Shown: in pieces, positions 2,249-19,799 of the stretch | How positions within the stretch are numbered: the first letter of the stretch is position 1 | Layout of the letters: each line of letters begins with the position of its first letter | Virus record (IMG/VR): IMGVR_UViG_3300042484_001947 | Location: 1-20,381 of that record | Strand: one strand, 5' to 3' | DNA length: 20,381 nucleotides | Origin: a virus | Made by a program: the position numbers and the translations under genes | Notes under the pieces: generated by a model | The model's database searches: none | What the model was told of the DNA's origin: nothing | The model's input: only the letters and a program-made list of their open reading frames with translations

Positions 2249-2909
2249 GTTTTCCAGATGCCAGCACTATACGGCAGATGTGTTCCAATCTTTCGATATG
2301 TTCATATGCACGCCATGGGCTGGTATCAATAGCAACCACACCATGTCCTTTAATGCCTACAATGTCATAAGCAATATTACCTGCTGCATCTAATTGCAGA
2401 TTCCTGTGACATTCGTCAGCAAGTTCCTGACTGATGGGAGGTACATCACCCACATTGGGTGCTACTCGGGTATAACGGTTGAGTTCCGGAAACGCATCAC
2501 TGATAGTACTCAAATCTATACCGGCATGCATGGCTGCTATACAGTAAGTAGGATGTAGGTGGACCACTACTCTGACATCTGCGCTATGCTGGCCCATGGC
2601 TCGTTGCAAGCCAAAGTGCAGTGGGATTTCACCACTGGGTTTTAAGTTTGCACTGATGTCAGTATAAAATTCCTCTTCCCAACTCGATAGCATCACTGGC
2701 TTAATAAACATTGGGGTAGGTACATGTGGTGAATTTAATATTTTGATCTTTTTAAACTGATCTGGTTGTAGAGTTTGCTTACGTACTCCAGTCGGGGTAA
2801 TGTAGAAATGATCACGACCATGATGACGAATACTGACATTACCATCTCTACTGGTGATCCAATTACGTTGGTAGGCATCTACTAAGACTTCACAAATAGT
2901 TTCTAACAT
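2241..2909 (-). CDS. Class II aldolase/adducin family protein
   Basis: The protein matches the class II (zinc) aldolase family typified by L-fuculose-1-phosphate aldolase and methylthioribulose-1-phosphate dehydratase. Visible family features are the phosphate-binding GNVSIR near residues 24-29, an acidic residue in PSGEIPLHFG (E94, the usual catalytic glutamate region), the zinc pair H117 and H119 in VVHLHPTY, and the third zinc ligand H189 in KGHGVV. At 222 residues it has the normal family length. I chose ATG at 2909 because it forms a TAATG junction with the queD stop; an in-frame ATG at 2933 would add eight residues and overlap more. It probably acts in the cytoplasm on a phosphorylated sugar or ketose, but the substrate cannot be read. 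Adducin-like non-catalytic roles are less likely because all metal ligands are kept. Confidence 0.85.
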   Translation of the reverse strand: MLETICEVLVDAYQRNWITSRDGNVSIRHHGRDHFYITPTGVRKQTLQPDQFKKIKILNSPHVPTPMFIKPVMLSSWEEEFYTDISANLKPSGEIPLHFGLQRAMGQHSADVRVVVHLHPTYCIAAMHAGIDLSTISDAFPELNRYTRVAPNVGDVPPISQELADECHRNLQLDAAGNIAYDIVGIKGHGVVAIDTSPWRAYEHIERLEHICRIVLASGKHE

Positions 2910-3412
2910 TATGCAAATAAATCCTCTGCCCATTCTCTGTGGCCTTCTCGGAACGCCATGTTGTTCTGCGTCTCACGTACTTCTACTCTGTAGCACCACA
3001 GGCGTTCTGCCTCACCTGGTCCCCAGTTATCAGGAATATACACGCCATTAATAAATCGGTACAGCATGTCTGCCAACCCCTCACAGCCCAGCTTGGGCAG
3101 GATGGTCAACTTGGCCATGTTCTTGGATTCCAGCATGATGAATGTCTGTAACTCTGGATCATCTTCAGCCACTAACAATGTGTGGTCAAACTGCATTTCC
3201 AGGACATTTTTAAGTTCTTTAAGTCCGCCGTAGTCGGCAGCCCAGTTACGCACATCCAGGTCGTTGGTACCAAAGTAAAACTTCATGCTAAAGGCATAGC
3301 CATGTATTAGATTGCAATGACTGTCTGCTCGCCACTGCCTGTAGGCGCAGGGAAATGCATCGTGATATTCTTTTGTACTGGTGTATCGGTATTGCACGGA
3401 TTGATTTGCCAT
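2909..3412 (-). CDS. queD: 6-carboxy-5,6,7,8-tetrahydropterin synthase-like (QueD/PTPS family)
   Basis: This T-fold enzyme would convert 7,8-dihydroneopterin triphosphate, the FolE product, into 6-carboxytetrahydropterin on the path to preQ0. Visible features are the catalytic-type cysteine C33 followed by H37 in a C-NLI-HGY motif, the FDH pair D76/H77, and the substrate-binding glutamate E147 in VEVRETQNN. The canonical HGH zinc motif is HGY here, so the third zinc ligand is altered; from memory, marine phage and alphaproteobacterial relatives share the HGY form, so this is probably a subfamily trait. At 167 residues it is longer than E. coli QueD (about 120), because of an insert after the FDH motif. 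It is the first gene after a strong sigma70-like promoter, with GGAG upstream of its ATG, and is coupled to the aldolase gene. A 6-pyruvoyl-type activity is the main alternative. Confidence 0.85.
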   Translation of the reverse strand: MANQSVQYRYTSTKEYHDAFPCAYRQWRADSHCNLIHGYAFSMKFYFGTNDLDVRNWAADYGGLKELKNVLEMQFDHTLLVAEDDPELQTFIMLESKNMAKLTILPKLGCEGLADMLYRFINGVYIPDNWGPGEAERLWCYRVEVRETQNNMAFREGHREWAEDLFA

Positions 3413-4615: not shown

Positions 4616-5152
4616 TTATTCCCACCAGTTTTCCCAGGGGAATACGATCCAGCAATCTTCTTCGGCTTTGTTGATCTCTGTACCTGAATAATTGACCGCT
4701 TGGAAGTCGCTGGCTTGATTGTCAGCCAGTACAGCAAAGCGAACATTGTCTTTCCAAACATGATCCCACCTTTCGGTATCGTCGGGTAAGCAACCTGATT
4801 GCCAATCCTTTTTAATCCAATTTAATGTAGCACCAGTATCATTAATGTCGTCAACGATGAGGATCTTTTTTCGACCATCACCACCTGACATGGGGTCATA
4901 ATGTACGTGTCCGTATGCATCTTCGGCCATCCAGCAATTACTTTCGCATTCAGCACCGTCTCGTAGACTGACTTTTAAAGATTCCATGGGAACGTTCAAG
5001 TACTGACTGATCATATTGGCTGGTACTAGCCCACCGCGGGTCAGACCCACTACGTAATCAGGACGCCAATTGTCCTGTTGCATGGCTCGGATGATGTTGT
5101 GTACGTATCCACGAACGTCACGATCGCTGTAATAAATTTTAGGCGTGCTCAT
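4616..5152 (-). CDS. Phosphoribosyltransferase family protein (type I)
   Basis: The motif ILIVDDINDTGAT at about residues 97-109 is the PRPP-binding loop of type I phosphoribosyltransferases, and GLTRGGLVPA near residue 36 matches the phosphate loop that follows the first strand. At about 178 residues it has family length and resembles xanthine/hypoxanthine phosphoribosyltransferases, which join a purine base to PRPP. I prefer ATG at 5152 because GGAG lies seven bases upstream; the upstream ATG at 5191 has no clear ribosome site and would overlap the previous gene by about 50 bases. In this setting it may support base salvage for phage DNA synthesis, possibly including 7-deazapurine bases, but that is inference. 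Specificity cannot be told from the sequence. Confidence 0.85.
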   Translation of the reverse strand: MSTPKIYYSDRDVRGYVHNIIRAMQQDNWRPDYVVGLTRGGLVPANMISQYLNVPMESLKVSLRDGAECESNCWMAEDAYGHVHYDPMSGGDGRKKILIVDDINDTGATLNWIKKDWQSGCLPDDTERWDHVWKDNVRFAVLADNQASDFQAVNYSGTEINKAEEDCWIVFPWENWWE

Positions 5153-5492
5153 TGGTAAACTCCGGAAAATTGTGTGATAGGATTGATTCATTAAATCTCA
5201 GTATGAATGCCGATGCCACTGCACCATCCTCACCCTGAAAATGCAACAGGATGTTCTGGCTACCATCTTGCATACGGTAACAATACTTGCCCCGGCCATA
5301 ACTGACTCGTTTGACGAACTTTTCAGGCTGCATTTTGCCGTAACCCGGTCCATTGCGGGGATATGCCATCTGATGGTCGGTAGTGACTGCACCACCCACG
5401 TCCACGAACCATTGCAGCATGTCATCAGTCAATTCATCAATGACAATTCTGATGTTTTGTGATACTGTACAACCAGGGGGCATGATCATCAT
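5139..5492 (-). CDS. Hypothetical protein (117 aa)
   Basis: I do not recognise this protein. It starts at ATG 5492 in an ATGA overlap with the folE stop, and its end overlaps the phosphoribosyltransferase start by 14 bases. The middle is basic and glycine rich (YGRGKYCYR), and the C-terminal part (ILLHF...AFILRF) alternates like beta strands and loosely recalls the LLRW/ALRW ends of two small proteins further downstream. No signal peptide or membrane segment is seen. Its position between folE and a phosphoribosyltransferase suggests co-expression with nucleotide-related enzymes but does not give a function. Confidence 0.65.
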   Translation of the reverse strand: MMIMPPGCTVSQNIRIVIDELTDDMLQWFVDVGGAVTTDHQMAYPRNGPGYGKMQPEKFVKRVSYGRGKYCYRMQDGSQNILLHFQGEDGAVASAFILRFNESILSHNFPEFTNEHA

Positions 5493-6280
5493 CTGGGGGC
5501 AAACTCTTGTTGTAGTTTAATGTTGTCGAAAAATTCTTTCTTGGTACCGGGATCTGTCATAAACGAGCCTTTAAGTACCGTGGTCTGAGTCAGGCTACTA
5601 TGCGCCATGATGCCACGATTTTCGCAGCAACCATGTGTGGCTTGTATGTAGACTGCTACGTTTTCACTGTCTGTGGCACGACTTATCTCTCGAGCAATAT
5701 CGTTACACAATTCTTCTTGGAGTGTTCCACGTCTAGCGCACCACTGGGCGATACGAGTATATTTAGACAAACCAATGAGCTTTTGGGCTGCGATGATTCC
5801 GATATACGCGACGCCAACCACAGGCTGGTGATGGTGACTGCACATGCTACGAAGCTCACTACGCACAACCAACATACCTTCATATCTGTCCTCGCTGTCA
5901 TTGGGAAATGCAGTGGCATCAGGTGCTGCTTCATACCTGCCGGCCATGATCTCATTAAAATACATTTTGGCCAACCGCCTGGCTGTGCCCTTGCTGTTGG
6001 GATCGTTTTTACGATCAATAAGCAATGTATCTAATACTTTTTCAAATGCTTCTGTGGCTTCGTTGATCAAATGTTCTTTATCAGATTCAGCAATGTATTC
6101 GCTGATGTTATCACCAGCCCAGAAACGTTTGCCTTCACGATTCATTTTAAATCGAATGACATCTGACAAGTTACATTCTTCCCAATTTTTGTTGTCATCG
6201 CCCTGCTGTTCTGCACCAGCAAGGGTATTTCTTATTTCTTGATCTCTTTTTAACAGCTCAAGTGGTGTTGGATTGCCCAT
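5489..6280 (-). CDS. folE: GTP cyclohydrolase I
   Basis: FolE converts GTP to 7,8-dihydroneopterin triphosphate, the first step toward both folate and 7-deazaguanine (queuosine, preQ0) compounds. The catalytic domain fills about residues 70-263: the zinc site is C147 with H149/H150 in CSHHHQPV and C218 in HGCCENRG, and the conserved GLSKYTRI (170-177) and LQEELCNDIA (187-196) are present. The first 70 or so residues are a polar extension not found in the core enzyme of E. coli. It has its own near-consensus promoter and a GGGAG ribosome site. It is followed by coupled small genes and a phosphoribosyltransferase. With queD and a DpdA-type gene in the same window, supply of 7-deazaguanine is the likely job, rather than folate alone. 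Confidence 0.93.
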   Translation of the reverse strand: MGNPTPLELLKRDQEIRNTLAGAEQQGDDNKNWEECNLSDVIRFKMNREGKRFWAGDNISEYIAESDKEHLINEATEAFEKVLDTLLIDRKNDPNSKGTARRLAKMYFNEIMAGRYEAAPDATAFPNDSEDRYEGMLVVRSELRSMCSHHHQPVVGVAYIGIIAAQKLIGLSKYTRIAQWCARRGTLQEELCNDIAREISRATDSENVAVYIQATHGCCENRGIMAHSSLTQTTVLKGSFMTDPGTKKEFFDNIKLQQEFAPR

Positions 6281-6626: not shown

Positions 6627-7709
6627 ATGAAACGTGCCGTACTGTGTGTGGACAATCCACAAGACTTCATCCCCCAATTAAATGATTATAGTATTATGAT
6701 CATCAATCCCAATTCCACTGCTGCCAGGAATCAATACCTGTTGGGCAAAAGCGACTATTCATTATTGATCACTGCTGAAGGCGAACAATATCGTGATGGT
6801 GGTGATTATGGTGATGAACGTGTGCTGTGGTATACATCAGGCACCACAGGTGACAGTAAATTCTGTAGCTTCACACAAGCACAGATTGACAACATGGCCG
6901 CCCGCATATGCCAGACCTATCAGATAACTGAAAACGATCGTTATGTCAGTGTCATGAGTCTGTGGCATGCACATGGGCAGGGCTTCTATTGGGCCACTAA
7001 CCTGGCTGGATGCAGCCGTAGTTTCATGTCAGTCAAGGACATACGTAGCCTACCAGAACGCCGGCCCACCTTCGTCACTGCCATACCAGATGTACTCAAA
7101 GTGGTTGCACAGGGCAATTATCGTGGTCTGCGATTTATTCGTAGTGCCAGCGCACCTCTGCCACCAGAATTACAAAGAGAATTGGCTTATAAATTCCGGG
7201 TGCCAGTTGTGGAAGCATTTGGCATGACCGAAGCCCTGAGTCATTGCTTTACCAATCCGTTGGTAGGTGAACAACGAGCCGGCACTGTGGGGTTGCCTGA
7301 CGGCGTGGAGGCTGACATAGTGGAAGGTCGTTTGTATATTCGTGGGCCAACTGTGGTAGTACCCGGCTGGTATGACACAGGTGATCTGGCTGACCAGGAT
7401 GCAGCTGGTTACTTCCGTATACTGGGCCGCAGTCGAGATCAGATCAACGTGCGTGGATTGAAGTTGAACCCCGTTAGTCTGGAGCAGAAACTCATGGATA
7501 ATATTGATGGATTACGTGATTGTGTGATATTTGGCTCAGACGCAGTCAAGTGTCTGTATGTGGGTGACGCAGACCCAGATGTCATAAGACGTTATCTAAT
7601 AGCATTGGGCCCGCATTGTCGCCCTGTATTACTGAACAAGGTCGATGCTGTGCCCGTCAGTCCGTCTGGCAAAATCAGCCGCACCTGGTTGGATGTTCAG
7701 TTTTCGTAA
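6627..7709 (+). CDS. Acyl-adenylate-forming ligase (ANL superfamily), compact
   Basis: The protein has the core motifs of AMP-forming acyl-CoA synthetases and acyl-AMP ligases: the phosphate loop YTSGTTGDSK (69-78), AFGMTEALSH (198-207), YDTGDL (249-254), the hinge ILGRSRDQINVRG (265-277) and the catalytic lysine K349 in PSGKISR. At 360 residues it lacks about 150 residues of the usual N-terminal part, yet both catalytic lobes remain, so activation of a carboxylic acid with ATP is plausible. It is the only plus-strand gene here and follows a TATAAATA motif. I see no clear Shine-Dalgarno sequence before the ATG. Its last 81 bases overlap the 3' end of the minus-strand aminotransferase gene. 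The acid substrate and the acceptor (CoA, carrier protein or other) are unknown. Confidence 0.88.
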   Translation: MKRAVLCVDNPQDFIPQLNDYSIMIINPNSTAARNQYLLGKSDYSLLITAEGEQYRDGGDYGDERVLWYTSGTTGDSKFCSFTQAQIDNMAARICQTYQITENDRYVSVMSLWHAHGQGFYWATNLAGCSRSFMSVKDIRSLPERRPTFVTAIPDVLKVVAQGNYRGLRFIRSASAPLPPELQRELAYKFRVPVVEAFGMTEALSHCFTNPLVGEQRAGTVGLPDGVEADIVEGRLYIRGPTVVVPGWYDTGDLADQDAAGYFRILGRSRDQINVRGLKLNPVSLEQKLMDNIDGLRDCVIFGSDAVKCLYVGDADPDVIRRYLIALGPHCRPVLLNKVDAVPVSPSGKISRTWLDVQFS

Positions 7710-8273
7710 GTCGGGATAGGCCACGTGTCTGGGTACTTCATACGAAACTTTTGAAAATCTAGAAATAATATCAGTGCCACGAGCGCAATCCTCCAGAGTG
7801 GGACAATAATGCCAACCCCAGCCAAATACCTGTTGGTCCTGCCAGGGACTAACGCTCAGATCTCGACCATCACTGCGCCAGCGACTCAATTGGTGATAGA
7901 CATTGACATCATCTGTCAATATAGCCCCCACCTTGCCCAAATGTAGCGGTTTGCCGTGACCAAAACTCATACATTGAATCGATCCCGGTCGATACATATC
8001 AGGACTCAATAGTCTGGCACTATCCCAAATGCGAGTGCCGTAGAACTGGTATTCGCCAGTCCATCGTTCAGGCACCAACTCGTAATCGATATTCAGTTGA
8101 AGCATCAGCTGAGGTATGCTCAGGTAGGTGTACGATGTAAATCGACAACTCTTGACTTCATCGTAGCGCATGGCCAGTTCAATTGCATGAGTGCAACCAT
8201 CTGTGGCCACTGCATAGGGGGCACCAGTGTACTCAGCCAGACGTTGTTCAAATTCAAAAAGCCGATCAAACAT
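7629..8273 (-). CDS. DegT/DnrJ/EryC1/StrS-type aminotransferase, compact (214 aa)
   Basis: The N-terminus FEFEQRLAEYTGAPYAVATD matches the opening of the DegT family of PLP-dependent sugar aminotransferases. IWDSARLL (about 82-89) corresponds to the PLP-contacting acidic segment, and CMSFGHGKPLHLGKVGAI holds the expected Schiff-base lysine at K108. The protein is little more than half the usual 370-400 residues: spacing before the lysine is shortened and most of the C-terminal small domain is missing, so it may be a minimal or non-catalytic member. Its ATG makes a TAATG junction with the upstream gene, and its 3' end overlaps the opposing ligase gene by 81 bases. Amino-sugar synthesis for a glycan is the family role, but this is not certain here. 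Confidence 0.75.
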   Translation of the reverse strand: MFDRLFEFEQRLAEYTGAPYAVATDGCTHAIELAMRYDEVKSCRFTSYTYLSIPQLMLQLNIDYELVPERWTGEYQFYGTRIWDSARLLSPDMYRPGSIQCMSFGHGKPLHLGKVGAILTDDVNVYHQLSRWRSDGRDLSVSPWQDQQVFGWGWHYCPTLEDCARGTDIISRFSKVSYEVPRHVAYPDLRKLNIQPGAADFARRTDGHSIDLVQ

Positions 8274-8488: not shown

Positions 8489-8672
8489 CTTCAACTCCTT
8501 TTAAGTTTTTAATCATTACATATTGGTCAAACAATTGTGTTAATTCGTTATCTTCACCCACGTACCAATCAGCAGCAGCCTTCATACTGTATGACATAAT
8601 CTCAGAGTCGGTTTTGCCGGGAAAATGTCCCTCGCAGACTGCCAACCAGATTTCCGGTTTAGTGTCCATCAT
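8478..8672 (-). CDS. Hypothetical small protein (64 aa)
   Basis: The start ATG at 8672 overlaps the stop of the glycosyltransferase gene in an ATGA junction. The protein is soluble and acidic, with a helical, tryptophan-containing sequence (PEIWLAVCEGHFPGKTDSEI). No family is recognised. Tight overlaps at both ends support it as a real gene in the same transcript as the glycosyltransferase. Confidence 0.6.
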   Translation of the reverse strand: MMDTKPEIWLAVCEGHFPGKTDSEIMSYSMKAAADWYVGEDNELTQLFDQYVMIKNLKGVEDGD

Positions 8673-9733
8673 GATGTCAATTGATTGACCATGACAGTGG
8701 GTTGTAGGTAATCCTTGATCAATATGGCCTTCTGTTCCATCAATGCAGGAATATAATCACGGTAGTTACGTATACGTTCATTGATAAACGCTGCCAGACT
8801 GTCACGATATAACTGATAGTTGGCCAGGGATTCAGTCCAGATACTGGGGTACTTAAACTCTGGCAAATACATTTCTGTATAACTACAACGATCCGGCAAG
8901 ATGGGGATTACACCTGCTAATACACCTTCCATGACACTGATGCCCAGGTTCTCATGTAGACTACAGCTGAACAGGATTTTACAACGTCCCATGGTCTGAT
9001 AATACTCAGACTTGCTGAGATTCATCTTCTGTGTGATCAATGTGCGAGCATAGATGGCATTCTGCAAATCTTCCACAATATCCGGCTGCTTGTCAGCATT
9101 GTAACGATGCGGCCAGATCATGGTGTCAGTTTTAATGGTGTTCCAATATTGACTGCACTGATCAATAATGGGTGTATGTGGTTGCCCACTACGAACTGCC
9201 TTGTGATGAAACTCTGTGGAAATTTCCAAGTTACGCAAGAACATGTCTTTGTGGAAGTCAGTGGCAAAGTAATTGCGATCACAAGCATGGAACCAGGCAC
9301 GTTCCTGATGGTGTGGCCAGGGCTTCTGCATTTTGTAACCCAGAATGTCTGTGGGATCATAGGCACCTGCATGCCAGATGCCGTGTATCTCCACTGGAAT
9401 ATCCAGCAAGTCGCTCATGTAACGTATGGCTGTGATGACAAAGTTCCAGGCATCTGTTACCAGAAACTTATCTCCTGACTTGATCTCACCAGTGCTGAAC
9501 AGTCGACTGATGCATTCTGTCTGGCTGGCCTTGTAGACGTTGGTGGCACCAAAGTCCAGGAATGCACCAGTGGTGGTACCTGCTGGGATAGTCACACCGT
9601 CGATAGTTTTTACTGTGTAAGATTTACCCTGTTGGGCAATGGACTCATCCAGAATGCCGGGAATGTTGTCGTACCATTGCCGTGTATATCTGGCATCTAT
9701 GGGCTCGATGGGTACAATGTAGATGGTGTTCAT
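8669..9733 (-). CDS. GT-B fold glycosyltransferase-like protein
   Basis: The C-terminal half contains CSLHENLGISVMEGVLAGVI (about 257-276), with E261 and E269, matching the E-x7-E nucleotide-sugar binding motif of GT4-type retaining glycosyltransferases. The N-terminal half, about 150 residues, would be the acceptor lobe. At 354 residues it has a normal GT-B length. It starts in an ATGA overlap with a 54-residue zinc-ribbon candidate and ends in an ATGA overlap with the next small gene. Possible acceptors are phage DNA bases, phage structural proteins or host surface glycans; the sequence does not say. It is not clearly one of the T4 DNA glucosyltransferases. Confidence 0.8.
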   Translation of the reverse strand: MNTIYIVPIEPIDARYTRQWYDNIPGILDESIAQQGKSYTVKTIDGVTIPAGTTTGAFLDFGATNVYKASQTECISRLFSTGEIKSGDKFLVTDAWNFVITAIRYMSDLLDIPVEIHGIWHAGAYDPTDILGYKMQKPWPHHQERAWFHACDRNYFATDFHKDMFLRNLEISTEFHHKAVRSGQPHTPIIDQCSQYWNTIKTDTMIWPHRYNADKQPDIVEDLQNAIYARTLITQKMNLSKSEYYQTMGRCKILFSCSLHENLGISVMEGVLAGVIPILPDRCSYTEMYLPEFKYPSIWTESLANYQLYRDSLAAFINERIRNYRDYIPALMEQKAILIKDYLQPTVMVNQLTS

Positions 9734-9917: not shown

Positions 9918-10184
9918 TCAGTCTCTCACACGATATGTAGTACGTGGCTTGTTGTCGAACTTACGCTCGGCACGTGGATAAGGATTCCAGCCCGGACGAG
10001 CAGGTTTACCTCGGATGATACGTTGCATTTCACCCCAGGGAGTCTTTTCGTTATACAGATGTGCTTCGTCAAAGAAATATCCTTGCTCCACACAAAATTC
10101 ACGATAGCGATCCAGGTCGTCAAAGATCTGACTGACTTCGGGTTTCATACGCATATACTTCTTTAGCCATGTAGGATGGGCCAT
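9918..10184 (-). CDS. Conserved phage hypothetical protein (88 aa)
   Basis: The protein has a helical core (VSQIFDDLDRYREFCVEQGY, about 17-36) followed by FDEAHLYNEKTPWGEMQRII and a basic, proline-rich tail. From memory this layout recurs in uncharacterised small proteins of T4-like cyanophages, with similar 'FDDLxxFxxFC' and 'ExxLYN' segments. AAGGA lies upstream of its ATG. It follows the T-fold gene by nine bases and is probably in the same transcript. No function is known. Confidence 0.7.
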   Translation of the reverse strand: MAHPTWLKKYMRMKPEVSQIFDDLDRYREFCVEQGYFFDEAHLYNEKTPWGEMQRIIRGKPARPGWNPYPRAERKFDNKPRTTYRVRD

Positions 10185-10193
10185 GTTATTTCC

Positions 10194-10646
10194 TTAGATA
10201 CTGATTGATTGATATGGTCGGTGAGTGTTGTATTTTACCAAGCAGCCGTTCTCACCATCTTCGGCTACTTCTATCCAGACATTGCGTCCAGGATATCTAT
10301 TGGCGATCTGTAAGTACAGATCGTCTGCAATCATTTCACATGACTTATAGTCAAGTTTTAAAATGGCACCTTGAGTACTGGAATAGAGATTTTCCAGCCA
10401 TCGTTTAAATTGGATGAACTCGATGTCGCGGTCCGTGTGGAAGACGTCGATCCACACCCTGAAGTGAAAAGTGTGACGATGAGGATAACCCAGAAACGAT
10501 ACATCATATTCATCCCCAGTGGCTAATGCCGGATCAGTTAACGCTGCTGGGTATTTATGGATTCCTTCCTTGTTGAATGTCACCCAGATCTTGCGATCTG
10601 CTGATTCAACAATACGATCTATTTGCGTTCTTTGTTCTTGATTCAT
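10194..10646 (-). CDS. QueD/PTPS-like T-fold protein lacking catalytic residues
   Basis: The layout matches the 6-pyruvoyl/6-carboxytetrahydropterin synthase family: a possible first zinc ligand H30 (EGIHKYP), the pair H56 and H58 in PHRHTFHFRV, a DIEFIQFKRWLE segment like the family's 'DFxxLK', SCEMIADDLYLQI like 'PTxExIA', and a final VWIEVAED strand where QueD has its glutamate. The catalytic cysteine four residues before the HxH motif is leucine, and the LDH catalytic histidine is tyrosine (LDY). It may therefore bind zinc and a pterin or purine without normal QueD chemistry. It lies 32 bases after a DpdA-type gene, with its own promoter, which suggests a role in 7-deazaguanine handling. 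A distinct T-fold enzyme activity is also possible. Confidence 0.65.
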   Translation of the reverse strand: MNQEQRTQIDRIVESADRKIWVTFNKEGIHKYPAALTDPALATGDEYDVSFLGYPHRHTFHFRVWIDVFHTDRDIEFIQFKRWLENLYSSTQGAILKLDYKSCEMIADDLYLQIANRYPGRNVWIEVAEDGENGCLVKYNTHRPYQSISI

Positions 10647-10666: not shown

Positions 10667-10695
10667 ATTTTATAGTAATTAACTCAGGTCGTCAA
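10667..10695 (-). promoter_or_regulatory. Sigma70-like promoter for the T-fold gene
   Basis: On the minus strand TTGACG (10690-10695) is followed after 17 bases by TAAAAT (10667-10672); each hexamer differs from consensus at one position. The -35 box lies inside the last codons of the DpdA-type gene. A weaker alternative -10, TATAAA, gives a 15-base spacer. GGA precedes the downstream ATG. Confidence 0.55.
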
Positions 10696-12400
10696 GTTTG
10701 GTTTCATCAAATTCCATGTCGTCACCAATGTCACCGTCACCGTCATCTTCTGCTGTAAACAGAGCTTCAAACATAGTGTGGCCATTGATGGCCTTGGGGC
10801 CAATGTTACCAAAAGATCCTAAAATTTCAATCCAATAATTTTCATAAAATTCAATAATAGCATGAGCCTCTGCTTTGGTGGGGGCAGCAAATATCCGCTC
10901 CACGATGTCACGACACTTGGCATAATCACCATGACTCCATTGCATACTGTTGGGTAACCGGCCCTGATCATACTGACGATTGGCTTCTTGTACAGCATAG
11001 ATATGCGTCCAGACATTGTGTCCCATTTGCAATGCATAGCTGAAACTGTCCCAGCTGGTGCGGCCAATTTTGTTGATCTTGTTGAGATCAGGAACCACAT
11101 CGTATAAATCTTGATCTTTGAAGTTTTCCTCAGTTAACTCCACGCCAGGTTTGGGTACGCCTGGTTTGTAGATACATATGTCACTGATCTTGCAATGAGC
11201 ACTGACAGGGCTTTCATCAAAGTGTTTGAAATGACTAACAAAATCACTCATGGCCACTTCGCGTAGTGTACGTTGATCCAGAGCATATTTCTTATCGTCA
11301 ATACTCTTGCTCATACGATAACTCCAGCGATGATCTCGGCTCAGATCAGCATGGTGGTAAATCTGTCCGTTAGCCGTGGCCAGGAACGGACTAGCACAGT
11401 CAAAGCTGATGGTAAAATCAGGATTGACATATTTACGAATTGCTCGCTGTAGGTCAGTCAACAACAGAGCATATTCAATCTTACTGGTTCCCAGAACGTG
11501 TAACCAATCCTGTTGCCCCTGTTGCATCAGCCCGTCAAACTTCATCTCAATTAGCAAACGAATCATCAGCTCTGCATCAGTCTTGGTCTGGCCACCCATG
11601 GCCCAGCCATTGAAGTGTCGGCCGGGATACTTGGCAGGATCACAGAAGTCCTTCATGGTATTATACCAATTCAGTGCTTGTTTGTGATGGCTACCTTGTA
11701 ATACGTTTAGGAATTTAACACCGCCTGCTTCAACACCTTTACGATGCTTGATGAAGTATTCATTGTTGTATTTGGTGGCTTCCACAGCATCTTCATACGA
11801 ATTAAGACCAATCTTAGGACCCACTGGAGTTTCGGCAACCCAGGCAGGAGTATCCAATACCATACCCCAGTTCATGACACCGTCCATCCATTTTAGCACA
11901 GCATCACGTTTCTTTTGTGCCGCCACCAGCTTGTCCTGATATTCCTTCAACAGGTCCACAGTGATGGTCTTACCGGATTTGTTCACACGTTGTTCAGTTT
12001 TACCGGCCAGTTCAGCCAACTTGGCTTGCACACCTGGACTGTCAGGTGCTGCCCAGATACCTTCCCAGACACCTTTGGCAATCTGGAATCCGCCCGAGTC
12101 GCCCACAACAATGGCTGTGGGATCGCGATCACGAACCATGTCTTCACCAGCATCAGGTTTATTCAGATCTAAATTGGCATGTCCTGCTGAATACAGACTC
12201 CAACGATAGGGGAACAGACCTCGCTGTGGATTCAACCAATTGAGTTGTTCCATATCAGGGATACCAGCTGGCATACGCTCTGGTGGTACACAGTTGGGGT
12301 CTGATCTTTGTTTACCTATGTATGTGGCATAAAATCCACTCAGTGCTGGCAGAAAGACTGCGTAGTCATTCTGTTTACTTGTTAGATCATCTTGTTCCAT
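10679..12400 (-). CDS. dpdA: TGT-fold DNA transglycosylase, DpdA type
   Basis: The protein has the tRNA-guanine transglycosylase (TGT) core. DSGGFQ at 101-106 carries the proton-acceptor aspartate (D102 in bacterial TGT), VLQGS (233-237) matches the base-recognition 'VQGG', GWAMGG (265-270) matches 'AIGG', and FDCAS (333-337) carries D334 at the place of the nucleophilic aspartate. The bacterial zinc motif CxCxxC is not clear, and the protein has 573 residues rather than about 375, with inserts and an acidic C-terminal tail. These departures fit the DpdA family, which exchanges guanine in DNA for a 7-deazaguanine base, better than tRNA TGT. Its ATG overlaps the sulfotransferase-like gene by 14 bases. 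FolE, QueD and a T-fold protein nearby support DNA modification. An archaeosine-type tRNA enzyme is the main alternative. Confidence 0.82.
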   Translation of the reverse strand: MEQDDLTSKQNDYAVFLPALSGFYATYIGKQRSDPNCVPPERMPAGIPDMEQLNWLNPQRGLFPYRWSLYSAGHANLDLNKPDAGEDMVRDRDPTAIVVGDSGGFQIAKGVWEGIWAAPDSPGVQAKLAELAGKTEQRVNKSGKTITVDLLKEYQDKLVAAQKKRDAVLKWMDGVMNWGMVLDTPAWVAETPVGPKIGLNSYEDAVEATKYNNEYFIKHRKGVEAGGVKFLNVLQGSHHKQALNWYNTMKDFCDPAKYPGRHFNGWAMGGQTKTDAELMIRLLIEMKFDGLMQQGQQDWLHVLGTSKIEYALLLTDLQRAIRKYVNPDFTISFDCASPFLATANGQIYHHADLSRDHRWSYRMSKSIDDKKYALDQRTLREVAMSDFVSHFKHFDESPVSAHCKISDICIYKPGVPKPGVELTEENFKDQDLYDVVPDLNKINKIGRTSWDSFSYALQMGHNVWTHIYAVQEANRQYDQGRLPNSMQWSHGDYAKCRDIVERIFAAPTKAEAHAIIEFYENYWIEILGSFGNIGPKAINGHTMFEALFTAEDDGDGDIGDDMEFDETKLDDLS

Positions 12401-13007
12401 AAAATTTCACTTTTTCAATTAGTTCGTAGTCGGGCTTGAAGTATTGTCGTACTCGATCCATGTAACCAGGGCTTTGTATCTCTCTGGAAAATATTTCTTT
12501 AAATAATTTTCGTTCTGGGCTTGCGTCACTTACGTGTTGGTAATCATATCTGTTGTATCGGTTGGGCATTCCGCGATCTGCCAGAAAGTCGCTGAAATTC
12601 TGTCGATATTCTGGTCCAAATTTAAAATACACTGCATTGGAAAGATTTAGCCCCTGTAAGAAGTATACTTGACGTTCAGTATGGTCGTCAAAGGCAATCT
12701 TGTCAAACACCAGGTCAAAGAAGGCATTATTAAACTGTGATACATCGATGTTGCGATGATACAGATACATATACTCTGCAATGCCACTTAGCCAACGGTC
12801 CACTGGGTCACGTAATACTATCATGGGTACTTTATTTAGGCCGTCGGTATGATAGTTATAACATTCCCAACCCCAATCCTTGAGATTGGGTTTGGTCCAG
12901 GATGTGGCATTTTTAGGCACATTGACATACATGAATTCAGATTCTGGATGACTCCAGCACTCTCCGAATACGTGGCCACGTTCTTGATAGTAATTTAAGA
13001 AGCTCAT
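12387..13007 (-). CDS. Sulfotransferase-like protein (206 aa)
   Basis: The N-terminal FMYVNVPKNATSW (25-37) resembles the 5'-phosphosulfate-binding loop (VPKxGS/T) of PAPS-dependent sulfotransferases, with K32, and VLRDPVDRWLSG (64-75) matches the 3'-phosphate-binding motif RDPxxRxxS. At 206 residues it is slightly short for the family but keeps both PAPS-binding motifs. It would transfer sulfate from PAPS to a glycan, peptide or small molecule in the cytoplasm. Its start forms an ATGA overlap with a radical SAM gene and its end overlaps the DpdA-type gene, so the three are probably made together. The acceptor is unknown. Confidence 0.78.
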   Translation of the reverse strand: MSFLNYYQERGHVFGECWSHPESEFMYVNVPKNATSWTKPNLKDWGWECYNYHTDGLNKVPMIVLRDPVDRWLSGIAEYMYLYHRNIDVSQFNNAFFDLVFDKIAFDDHTERQVYFLQGLNLSNAVYFKFGPEYRQNFSDFLADRGMPNRYNRYDYQHVSDASPERKLFKEIFSREIQSPGYMDRVRQYFKPDYELIEKVKFYGTR

Positions 13008-14023
13008 AGTAACTTTAATAGTGTATGTGGAATGTCTATACGTGGTGTACCACGCACAGCACGTAATTGATCTAATGCTACAGAATGTAATGGATGAGCA
13101 GGATTTGCCACATCTTGTGCAGCAAAATCGTCAAAGGTGTACCAGTCATCTAATTTGGTGATGCCACCATGGAATCCATATTCCGTACACATGGCGACAA
13201 AATTTTGTACATCATGAACATTGGCAGCACTCAGACAAAAGAACAACAACACATGAGTATCCGGCTCACGCCCAGCTGCCAACCAGTCCAGATTATCACG
13301 CAGCACACTGAACCGACCAGGACTACGCACACGCTCGTATACCTCCTGACTGCCAGCATCTACACTCAATTGATAGTACTTGATGTGTGGAAACACCGGG
13401 CTGGCGGGCAACAACTTACGCATCAGCAGTCCATTGGTAAACAATTTGACGCTGTGATTGTGCTTGGGTTTCCAGTTGAGTAACAGTGGTCGCATGATGG
13501 CACTGGCCAGTGGATCACCATTGCCGCTCATGGTCAGTAATAATCCTTCCGGCTCGTCAAAGTCATTGACCAAGTTCACCAGATGATTAACAGCGGCCAA
13601 TCTGCGTTCATACAAGTCGCCCTTCTGATGCATAATGGGACCACGACGACATGTGGGGCAGGCCAGATTACAGCTTTCGTCAATGTTGACACTGATCTCA
13701 TATCGCTGTAGATTGACATCATGTTGTAGAATACCGCAATGCTCTACAGCACAGTAGGTGAACTTTTGGTCAGCAATGTTCTGCTGTAGGTATCCACTGG
13801 CAGGTAGATGCCAGACATCACGCAGACGTTTTAAGTCCTGGATATTAGCAACAGCCACTGGTAAATATGCATCACAGTGACATAGAAAGCAATCGCCTTC
13901 CATGTCTATACTCAGGCCACGAGTGGCCATGTTACAGGTATTGGTTATCGGCTCAGACCTAGCAATGCCGCGAGGTCTGGCTTCAAACACATAGGGATGA
14001 ATCTTTATCAGCGGCGATGGCAT
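13004..14023 (-). CDS. Radical SAM protein with cysteine-rich N-terminus (339 aa)
   Basis: The radical SAM cluster motif CNLACPTC places C118, C122 and C125 as the 4Fe-4S ligands. A cysteine-rich stretch precedes it (C30, C45, C48, C50, then C91 and C96), which looks able to bind an extra Fe-S cluster as in SPASM/twitch-type enzymes, but placed N-terminally. LTMSGNGDPLAS (about 163-174) occupies the place of the GGE SAM-binding motif, and 'LFTNGLLM' follows as in many family members. It starts in a TAATG junction with the sliding clamp gene and ends in an ATGA overlap with the sulfotransferase-like gene. The substrate is unknown. It is not QueE by length and layout. Confidence 0.85.
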   Translation of the reverse strand: MPSPLIKIHPYVFEARPRGIARSEPITNTCNMATRGLSIDMEGDCFLCHCDAYLPVAVANIQDLKRLRDVWHLPASGYLQQNIADQKFTYCAVEHCGILQHDVNLQRYEISVNIDESCNLACPTCRRGPIMHQKGDLYERRLAAVNHLVNLVNDFDEPEGLLLTMSGNGDPLASAIMRPLLLNWKPKHNHSVKLFTNGLLMRKLLPASPVFPHIKYYQLSVDAGSQEVYERVRSPGRFSVLRDNLDWLAAGREPDTHVLLFFCLSAANVHDVQNFVAMCTEYGFHGGITKLDDWYTFDDFAAQDVANPAHPLHSVALDQLRAVRGTPRIDIPHTLLKLL

Positions 14024-18487: not shown

Positions 18488-18493
18488 ATTATA
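18488..18493 (-). promoter_or_regulatory. 43: Possible -10 element upstream of gene 43
   Basis: A perfect TATAAT on the minus strand includes the TAA stop of the radical SAM gene. No good -35 hexamer lies 16-18 bases upstream (TCGCAT at 17), so it would need an activator, such as a MotA-like middle-promoter factor, or is fortuitous. Confidence 0.3.
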
Positions 18494-19799
18494 CTGCATC
18501 AGGGTAGTAGATGCGATATATTTCTGCAATATTTGACTCAGGATGGACACCTTGTATACCGTGTAACAAATGTTGTATATCTTGGTACCCATCTGAATAT
18601 ATATCCTGACGCAGGTGGTATTCAAAACTTTCCATTCTCTGCCGCATGCCTGGCGAGTGTCGGTATATACGTTCACATGCATCGGGCAACTGTGTTAGAA
18701 TTTCTTCAATCACTGGCTGGGGCACTTGTCCAATATAGAAATTGTCAAAGGGATCCATTAACGCAGTGAATCCCATGTGGAAGTTATAAGTGTATCGTTC
18801 AGCTAAAAAGCACCATAGGTCCAGTACATGATGTATGTTCAACGCAGATACCACTGTGTTGACTGTGATATTGGGAATTTTGTTTTTTGTTTTCTGATAC
18901 TCCACCAACCAGGACATCAGATAATCGGTATTCTTCAGAATCTGAGCCCAGTTACTGGGAGTGCGCTGTATATAGGCAATGTCTCCCATGCCATCCAGGC
19001 TCATGTTGATGCCAATTTTTTCAAAATGATACAAGACATCTAACAGTCGTTGATTGATGTTGGTCAGATTGGTGCTGAAACGCAATTCGATATGTTGACT
19101 ATGACCAGTACTGACCAACTGTTCCAGAAATTCGATGTTCTGGATAATCAGGGTGGGCTCTCCGCCAGTCAGGAAGATGTGTCGTATGTCGGCATAGTAT
19201 TTGGGAAATACGGTACTAAGTGGATTAGTGATGGGCCAATTTTGATCGCCGGCCAGATATATAGCACTATCATCATTATTAGCGTATGCACCACCATTTC
19301 TATTAAACTTGATCTGCTGTAGCATTTCAAATCCCTGCCGTCGGAAAAATTTACTCCAGGTATTGCTGTATCTGGGGCCACACATCTTACATGCCAGGTT
19401 GCACAGATTGCCACTCATGATCTGAAAATCTTTGGGGTTATCTTCTACATGTCCATGGTGAGTACTGGCATATTCGATTCTGTCCATCACTGTGGCAATG
19501 GGTATCTGCCCAAATGCTGCCTGTAAGCGCATACTGGAACCCTGTGTGTGGTCAGGAGTTTCACGCTTCCAACAGCCCTCACATGATTCAGGTTCACGGC
19601 CTGCAATTAAATCCTGTCTCAGCTGACGTATGTCTGCACTGTTCCAGGCCTCCAACATGGTGTGTGTTTTGACATTGTATTGGCCACCAGTCTCGGCAGT
19701 ATGAGTGCCGGGCTTGGCGTTGCAACAATATTTTATATCGCCATTGGGATCAATATGCTGATGAGCAAATGGGTACGGGCAGATGGTGGCACTGATCAT
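18489..19799 (-). CDS. Radical SAM protein with N-terminal twitch-like domain (436 aa)
   Basis: The 4Fe-4S motif CNLACKMC gives C133, C137 and C140, and HIFLTGGEPTL further on is the GGE SAM-binding motif. The N-terminal 80 residues have C7 and the pair C25/C26 in the pattern CPYPF...DPNGDIKYCC, then C73 and C76 in ESCEGCW: this is the same pattern seen in the C-terminal SPASM/twitch cluster domains, but at the N-terminus, as in 'twitch domain-containing radical SAM' proteins. A second auxiliary Fe-S cluster is likely. Its ATG makes a TGATG junction with the membrane protein gene, and the stop overlaps a -10-like element before gene 43. The substrate may be a peptide or a small molecule; it is unknown. 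Confidence 0.88.
   Translation of the reverse strand: MISATICPYPFAHQHIDPNGDIKYCCNAKPGTHTAETGGQYNVKTHTMLEAWNSADIRQLRQDLIAGREPESCEGCWKRETPDHTQGSSMRLQAAFGQIPIATVMDRIEYASTHHGHVEDNPKDFQIMSGNLCNLACKMCGPRYSNTWSKFFRRQGFEMLQQIKFNRNGGAYANNDDSAIYLAGDQNWPITNPLSTVFPKYYADIRHIFLTGGEPTLIIQNIEFLEQLVSTGHSQHIELRFSTNLTNINQRLLDVLYHFEKIGINMSLDGMGDIAYIQRTPSNWAQILKNTDYLMSWLVEYQKTKNKIPNITVNTVVSALNIHHVLDLWCFLAERYTYNFHMGFTALMDPFDNFYIGQVPQPVIEEILTQLPDACERIYRHSPGMRQRMESFEYHLRQDIYSDGYQDIQHLLHGIQGVHPESNIAEIYRIYYPDAV

Follow-up and report, generated by a model that had tools for sequence, protein, structure and literature searches.

Gene content of the locus

The DNA considered here, hereafter called the window, is the whole 20,381-nucleotide stretch of the IMG/VR virus record IMGVR_UViG_3300042484_001947. 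Around a small gene for a T-fold protein, the following features were recognised:

2909..3412, minus strand, phage-type QueD (H-G-Y variant), CPH4 synthase (PF01242, E=2e-14; phrog_2389, E=7e-36; residue conservation)
4616..5191, minus strand, phosphoribosyltransferase, xanthine/guanine-like (PF00156, E=6e-12; NCBIfam xanthine PRT, E=6e-11, below the cut-off)
5489..6280, minus strand, FolE, GTP cyclohydrolase I (PF01227, E=1e-39)
7629..8273, minus strand, DegT/DnrJ sugar aminotransferase, N-terminal part only (PF01041, E=4e-11, profile positions 28-85 of 360)
8669..9733, minus strand, GT-B glycosyltransferase, tracking long and medium DpdA (weak Pfam Glycos_transf_1, motif, locus counts)
9918..10184, minus strand, conserved 88-aa protein, encoded between the T-fold and glycosyltransferase genes (no family match)
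10194..10646, minus strand, T-fold protein, proposed CDG enzyme, DpdL-like (ORF, phrog_17812, AlphaFold2 model, fold matches, invariant residues)
10679..12400, minus strand, DpdA-type DNA guanine transglycosylase, long form, 573 aa (AlphaFold2 model, TGT fold matches, motifs)

The T-fold ORF is a genuine and widespread gene. Encoding 150 aa, it begins with an ATG preceded six bases upstream by AGGA, and it follows the DpdA gene in the same orientation, 32 nt further downstream. Its product matches phrog_17812 (E=1e-34), a family without name or function, of which scans of viral contigs returned at least 590 relatives among the matches listed; by tblastn, the protein was found in 26 annotated phage records, nearly all labelled "hypothetical protein." In Pfam, the profile of PTPS/QueD (PF01242) remained unmatched up to E 10 and nothing else of note appeared, and no NCBIfam model matched either. 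Natural fusions occur in Chryseobacterium phage MA9V-3 (L092:11437-12318), where the T-fold domain is joined to an endonuclease VII-like domain, and in Vibrio phage Bakedbeans (L089:9212-10363), where it follows a 260-aa N-terminal region of unknown nature.

Gene neighbourhoods were surveyed in 138 unique loci, each with 4 kb or more of sequence to either side of the T-fold gene. The 88-aa protein is present in 80 of them and the phosphoribosyltransferase lies near the module in 40; possible roles of the latter are salvage of guanine set free by DpdA, or action on the 7-deaza base. Elsewhere in the window, three SPASM-like radical SAM proteins are encoded (793-2058, 13004-14023, and 18489-19799), none of which matches the phage QueE set.

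The QueD at 2909-3412 had been taken for a second, complete copy in the preliminary description; it does keep C33, D76-H77, E111, and E147, whereas only one of its three zinc histidines remains. This H-G-Y type, retaining the Cys, the Asp-His and the Glu, lacks the same two canonical histidines in 69 of 70 neighbours and is a general phage type, present also in phages encoding QueC. A shared-site pair, i.e., a QueD without two zinc histidines complemented by a T-fold protein without Cys, Asp, and His, was considered and rejected as a specific arrangement, since phages with QueC but without the T-fold protein commonly carry the H-G-Y QueD. Of note, Aeromonas phage Ahp1 (L274) and Vibrio phage D479 (L275) encode proteins of about 300 aa apparently made of two T-fold QueD-like halves, with a CxxxxHGH motif in the second half only.

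Fold and Conserved Residues of the T-Fold Protein

Since searching the family against the PDB by sequence gave nothing meaningful, the T-fold assignment was taken from the structural model. Built from 62 rows, the AlphaFold2 model is of high confidence (pLDDT 93.7) and bears out the T-fold supposed in the preliminary description, with strands 19-30, 56-67, 123-129, and 133-139 and helices 74-87 and 103-117 following the beta-beta-alpha-alpha-beta-beta order. PTPS and QueD are the best matches, namely Pyrococcus PTPS at the top (Z 12.7) and E. coli QueD (Z 11.7, 2.3 A over 110). That the protein might reduce a 7-deazaguanine base, as once suggested, gains no support: QueF-like proteins, which would share with it a T-fold acting on a 7-deazaguanine, match less well (Z 9.5), and no ESK-type NADPH motif of QueF is visible when the alignment is judged by eye.

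The active site was read from profile alignments. H30, H56, and H58 fall on the QueD zinc ligands H16, H31, and H33, as predicted, and would bind zinc. L52, four residues before the HxH, occupies the place of the QueD catalytic C27, S102-C103-E104 aligns with the T-S-E helix start of QueD, and E129 with the base-anchoring Glu110. Across 232 distinct homologues, H30, L52, H56, H58, H70, R73, E76, F77, S102, E104, and E129 show no variation. C103 is kept in 230 and replaced by Val in two (L080, L212), which would argue that this Cys is not strictly required.

As such, the protein shares with QueD/PTPS the T-fold, the zinc triad positions and the base-anchoring Glu, but differs from them by an invariant Leu for the catalytic Cys, by the lack of an Asp-His dyad, by new invariant residues (H70, R73, E76, S102, E104) with a near-invariant C103, and by coexisting with a separate QueD in nearly every carrier. 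The loss of QueD chemistry proposed at the outset thus stands as regards the Cys and the Asp-His. It had, though, been argued in part from an LDY motif read as an altered LDH; that motif abuts S102-C103-E104, its D99 and Y100 vary freely (Tyr in 123 and His in 44 of the 232 homologues), and the true LDH segment has no counterpart in the protein. The protein's own set of H70, R73, E76, and C103 had been overlooked.

Pathway Position and Absence of QueC

Pathway genes were searched in 34 genomes or long contigs carrying the T-fold protein, some of the viral contigs being fragments in which a single absence weighs little. QueE was present in all 34, FolE in 32 and QueD in 31 over the cut-off. None had a full-length QueC, the matches to QueC being weak and partial. 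Those over the cut-off in two carriers (G009, G018) were set aside as sequences resembling NAD synthetase, and one possible exception is a 224-aa QueC-like protein of Vibrio phage D479 (partial match, 32.8 bits). Cellulophaga phage phiST is a carrier of a family member together with FolE, QueD, and QueE, without QueC.

For contrast, phage 9g was taken together with 11 phages that share the window's QueD type, in most cases a single representative of each genus among the hits. This set is small and non-random: it was selected on QueD similarity, and for two of its members the hits had shown QueC beforehand. QueC was found in 12/12, strongly in 11, and the T-fold protein in 0/12 by the same search that recovers it in 11/11 positive controls. 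Small as this set is, the mutual exclusion of QueC and the T-fold protein is strong, with a Fisher p of about 1e-9. Phages making dPreQ0 or dPreQ1 encode QueC (PMC6884629; PMC12028318), and this includes the QueF phage reported to make dPreQ1, where QueC is also in the cluster (PMC12028318).

Because QueE, FolE, and QueD are present and QueC absent, with exclusion in the contrast phages, the T-fold protein can be placed at the CDG (7-carboxy-7-deazaguanine) branch point in the stead of QueC. Like QueC and Gat-QueC, it is encoded beside FolE, QueD, QueE, and DpdA at the step after CDG, but its fold is unrelated and the two were mutually exclusive in the genomes tested. Such gene association fixes the pathway position, not the reaction, and as hosts can encode QueC, its loss from the phage alone leaves CDG unproven as the substrate. 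For the virus of the window, a 20-kb fragment, QueE is presumed from relatives. In sequences of Methanoperedenaceae and Methanosarcinales (L259:6099-11394 and L260), T-fold homologues have QueE and FolE close by but no DpdA was detected in their vicinity; the protein may have another use there.

Three Types of DpdA and a Glycosyltransferase

The preliminary description had placed the gene beside dpdA, and structure search agrees that the neighbour at 10679-12400 has a TGT/DpdA fold. Pfam missed this protein and DpdA profiles found nothing meaningful among PDB sequences. Its AlphaFold2 model (pLDDT 87.5) has as first three PDB matches a TGT, an archaeosine TGT and the DNA preQ0 insertase DpdA (7ui4), and in a second fold comparison all 50 of 50 rows were TGT, with Z up to 20.7. 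In the long DpdA, D101-S-G-G-x-Q and D334, the nucleophile Asp, are invariant. The expected co-occurrence likewise holds, a DpdA being identified near the T-fold protein in 124 of the 138 unique loci; in 16 loci apparently without one, a profile search for DpdA found none. The T-fold protein pairs with three dissimilar DpdA families, for which the TGT fold was confirmed by fold search in the long type only, the medium type being assigned by motifs, position and, in Xanthomonas X1, the record's own annotation, and the short DpdA-like protein by TGT-like motif order and position rather than fold.

The glycosyltransferase of the window matches Glycos_transf_1 poorly (E 0.0024, vs. E 8e-12 for its Xanthomonas X1 homologue) and carries a GT-B-like ExxGxxxxE signature. 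We observed that its presence is tied to the type of DpdA, which is new here: the 138 unique loci comprise 98 with long DpdA and glycosyltransferase, 7 with medium DpdA and glycosyltransferase, 18 with a short DpdA-like protein and no glycosyltransferase, 12 with glycosyltransferase only, 2 with neither and 1 with long DpdA only. In other words, the glycosyltransferase accompanies 105 of 106 unique long- or medium-DpdA loci vs. 0 of 18 with short DpdA. On the tree of the T-fold protein, these labels change 10 to 13 times, and at least 5 to 6 times on well-supported branches alone, counts that are rough as the tree derives from few columns. Since repeated label swaps are needed, the glycosyltransferase moves with the DpdA type and not with the T-fold lineage; the invariant residues stay the same through these swaps, so that all types probably share one reaction.

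Other sugar-related genes accompany the glycosyltransferase. An NDP-sugar epimerase lies at most 200 bp from it in 45 loci, overlapping it by a few bases in 28, and the DegT aminotransferase family occurs in 63 of 203 glycosyltransferase loci; neither was found in the 45 short-DpdA loci. The glycosyltransferase is translationally coupled in Acidovorax phage ACP17 and in Magnetospirillum cassettes, the Magnetospirillum sequences having the compact gene order glycosyltransferase, T-fold, DpdA. In one of them, on a 1.4-Mb contig (L254:8829-12554), the three genes overlap end to end, and behind them comes an ORF bearing a QueD-like HGH motif; this may be part of a prophage, or else a bacterial island for DNA modification. 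At another locus (L001:8893-9486), a 197-aa protein without Pfam match sits between the long DpdA and the T-fold gene, and its family occurs in 141 of 203 glycosyltransferase-type loci and 0 of 45 short-DpdA loci. In Xanthomonas phage PhiXhv-15 (L299:6659-9893), a distant relative of the glycosyltransferase, a deacetylase of PIG-L type and a Gat-QueC fusion are encoded side by side, a hint that phages with QueC may also have a glycosylated base.

For the long-DpdA type, the window included, this gene content suggests that the modified base in DNA bears a sugar. The module of glycosyltransferase, T-fold protein and long DpdA, which jumbo phages and Magnetospirillum contigs carry, is tentatively proposed to make a glycosylated 7-deazaguanine in DNA, an assignment that we hold with some reserve. 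No such hypermodified guanine is known to have been described.

Proposed Function and Alternative Readings

A new step beside a DNA transglycosylase had been envisaged from the start, and this idea gains from the co-occurrence with FolE, QueE, and DpdA, the replacement of QueC and an invariant active-site set of the protein's own. With moderate confidence, we propose that the T-fold protein is a zinc-site enzyme standing in QueC's place, most likely converting CDG into 7-deazaguanine and CO2 ahead of DpdA. The pathway would run as follows: (i) FolE, QueD, and QueE would yield CDG, (ii) the T-fold protein would bind CDG, the base edge being gripped by Glu129 and the Ser102-Cys103-Glu104 turn and the 7-carboxylate placed at the zinc on H30/H56/H58, (iii) loss of CO2 would leave 7-deazaguanine, His70/Arg73 or Cys103 being candidates for the proton donor, (iv) DpdA would swap 7-deazaguanine for guanine in DNA, and (v) in the long-DpdA type, that of the window, the glycosyltransferase would probably add a sugar afterwards, for example at a nucleophilic C7 exposed by decarboxylation. 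From the evidence above we infer zinc binding, CDG as the substrate, its decarboxylation and the glycosylation; decarboxylation is preferred as the only obvious reaction open to CDG without a cofactor and the simplest one at this branch point.

There is a closely similar system: in 2023, Cui et al. reportedly predicted a CDG decarboxylase, "DpdL," in phages with 2'-deoxy-7-deazaguanine. Both proteins would perform a predicted CDG to 7-deazaguanine step in phages, and the context of the T-fold gene (FolE, QueD, QueE, and DpdA, no QueC) matches, a likeness at the level of pathway context. The glycosyltransferase partner, in contrast, is not known to belong to the DpdL system.

What counts against decarboxylation is that a bare 7-deazaguanine offers no obvious acceptor to the accompanying glycosyltransferase. 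The T-fold protein might instead turn CDG into a base with a sugar-accepting handle, or present CDG itself, for the glycosyltransferase to decorate. The near-constant presence of the latter with long and medium DpdA (105/106), its translational coupling in ACP17 and the Magnetospirillum cassettes, and the epimerase close to it (45 loci, 28 overlapping), which like DegT is missing from the 45 short-DpdA loci, all speak for such a handle; we nonetheless regard it as unlikely, in that short-DpdA systems like that of phiST have the same invariant protein and no glycosyltransferase, and the product must there be usable unglycosylated. It is quite improbable that the protein works upstream on a pterin (H2NTP or CPH4) to give an alternative QueE substrate, in the manner of its PTPS/QueD relatives: pterin enzymes are the closest folds and the zinc triad is kept, but 31 of 34 carriers have a separate QueD, the Magnetospirillum cassette, too, has a QueD-like ORF behind it, and the QueD catalytic Cys and Asp-His are lost. 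Least probable, and very doubtful in our view, is a non-catalytic partner, akin to the DpdA subunit mooted in the preliminary description, that binds CDG, the predicted free base where QueC is absent, and hands it to DpdA for insertion as such, for despite the tight linkage to DpdA, an enzyme better fits a protein that associates with three dissimilar DpdA families, is never seen fused to DpdA, and keeps its zinc ligands and further invariant polar residues of catalytic type.

Significance

A large unnamed family of phage proteins hereby gains a position in a pathway, which accounts for how 7-deazaguanine DNA modification is completed in phages without QueC, and two types of system are separated by their DpdA and glycosyltransferase. 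Culturable phages, namely PA5oct, Paride, ACP17, Xanthomonas X1, and phiST, open the predicted decarboxylation and glycosylation to nucleoside mass spectrometry. If true, a guanine carrying a sugar would give phage DNA a novel form of protection from host defences.
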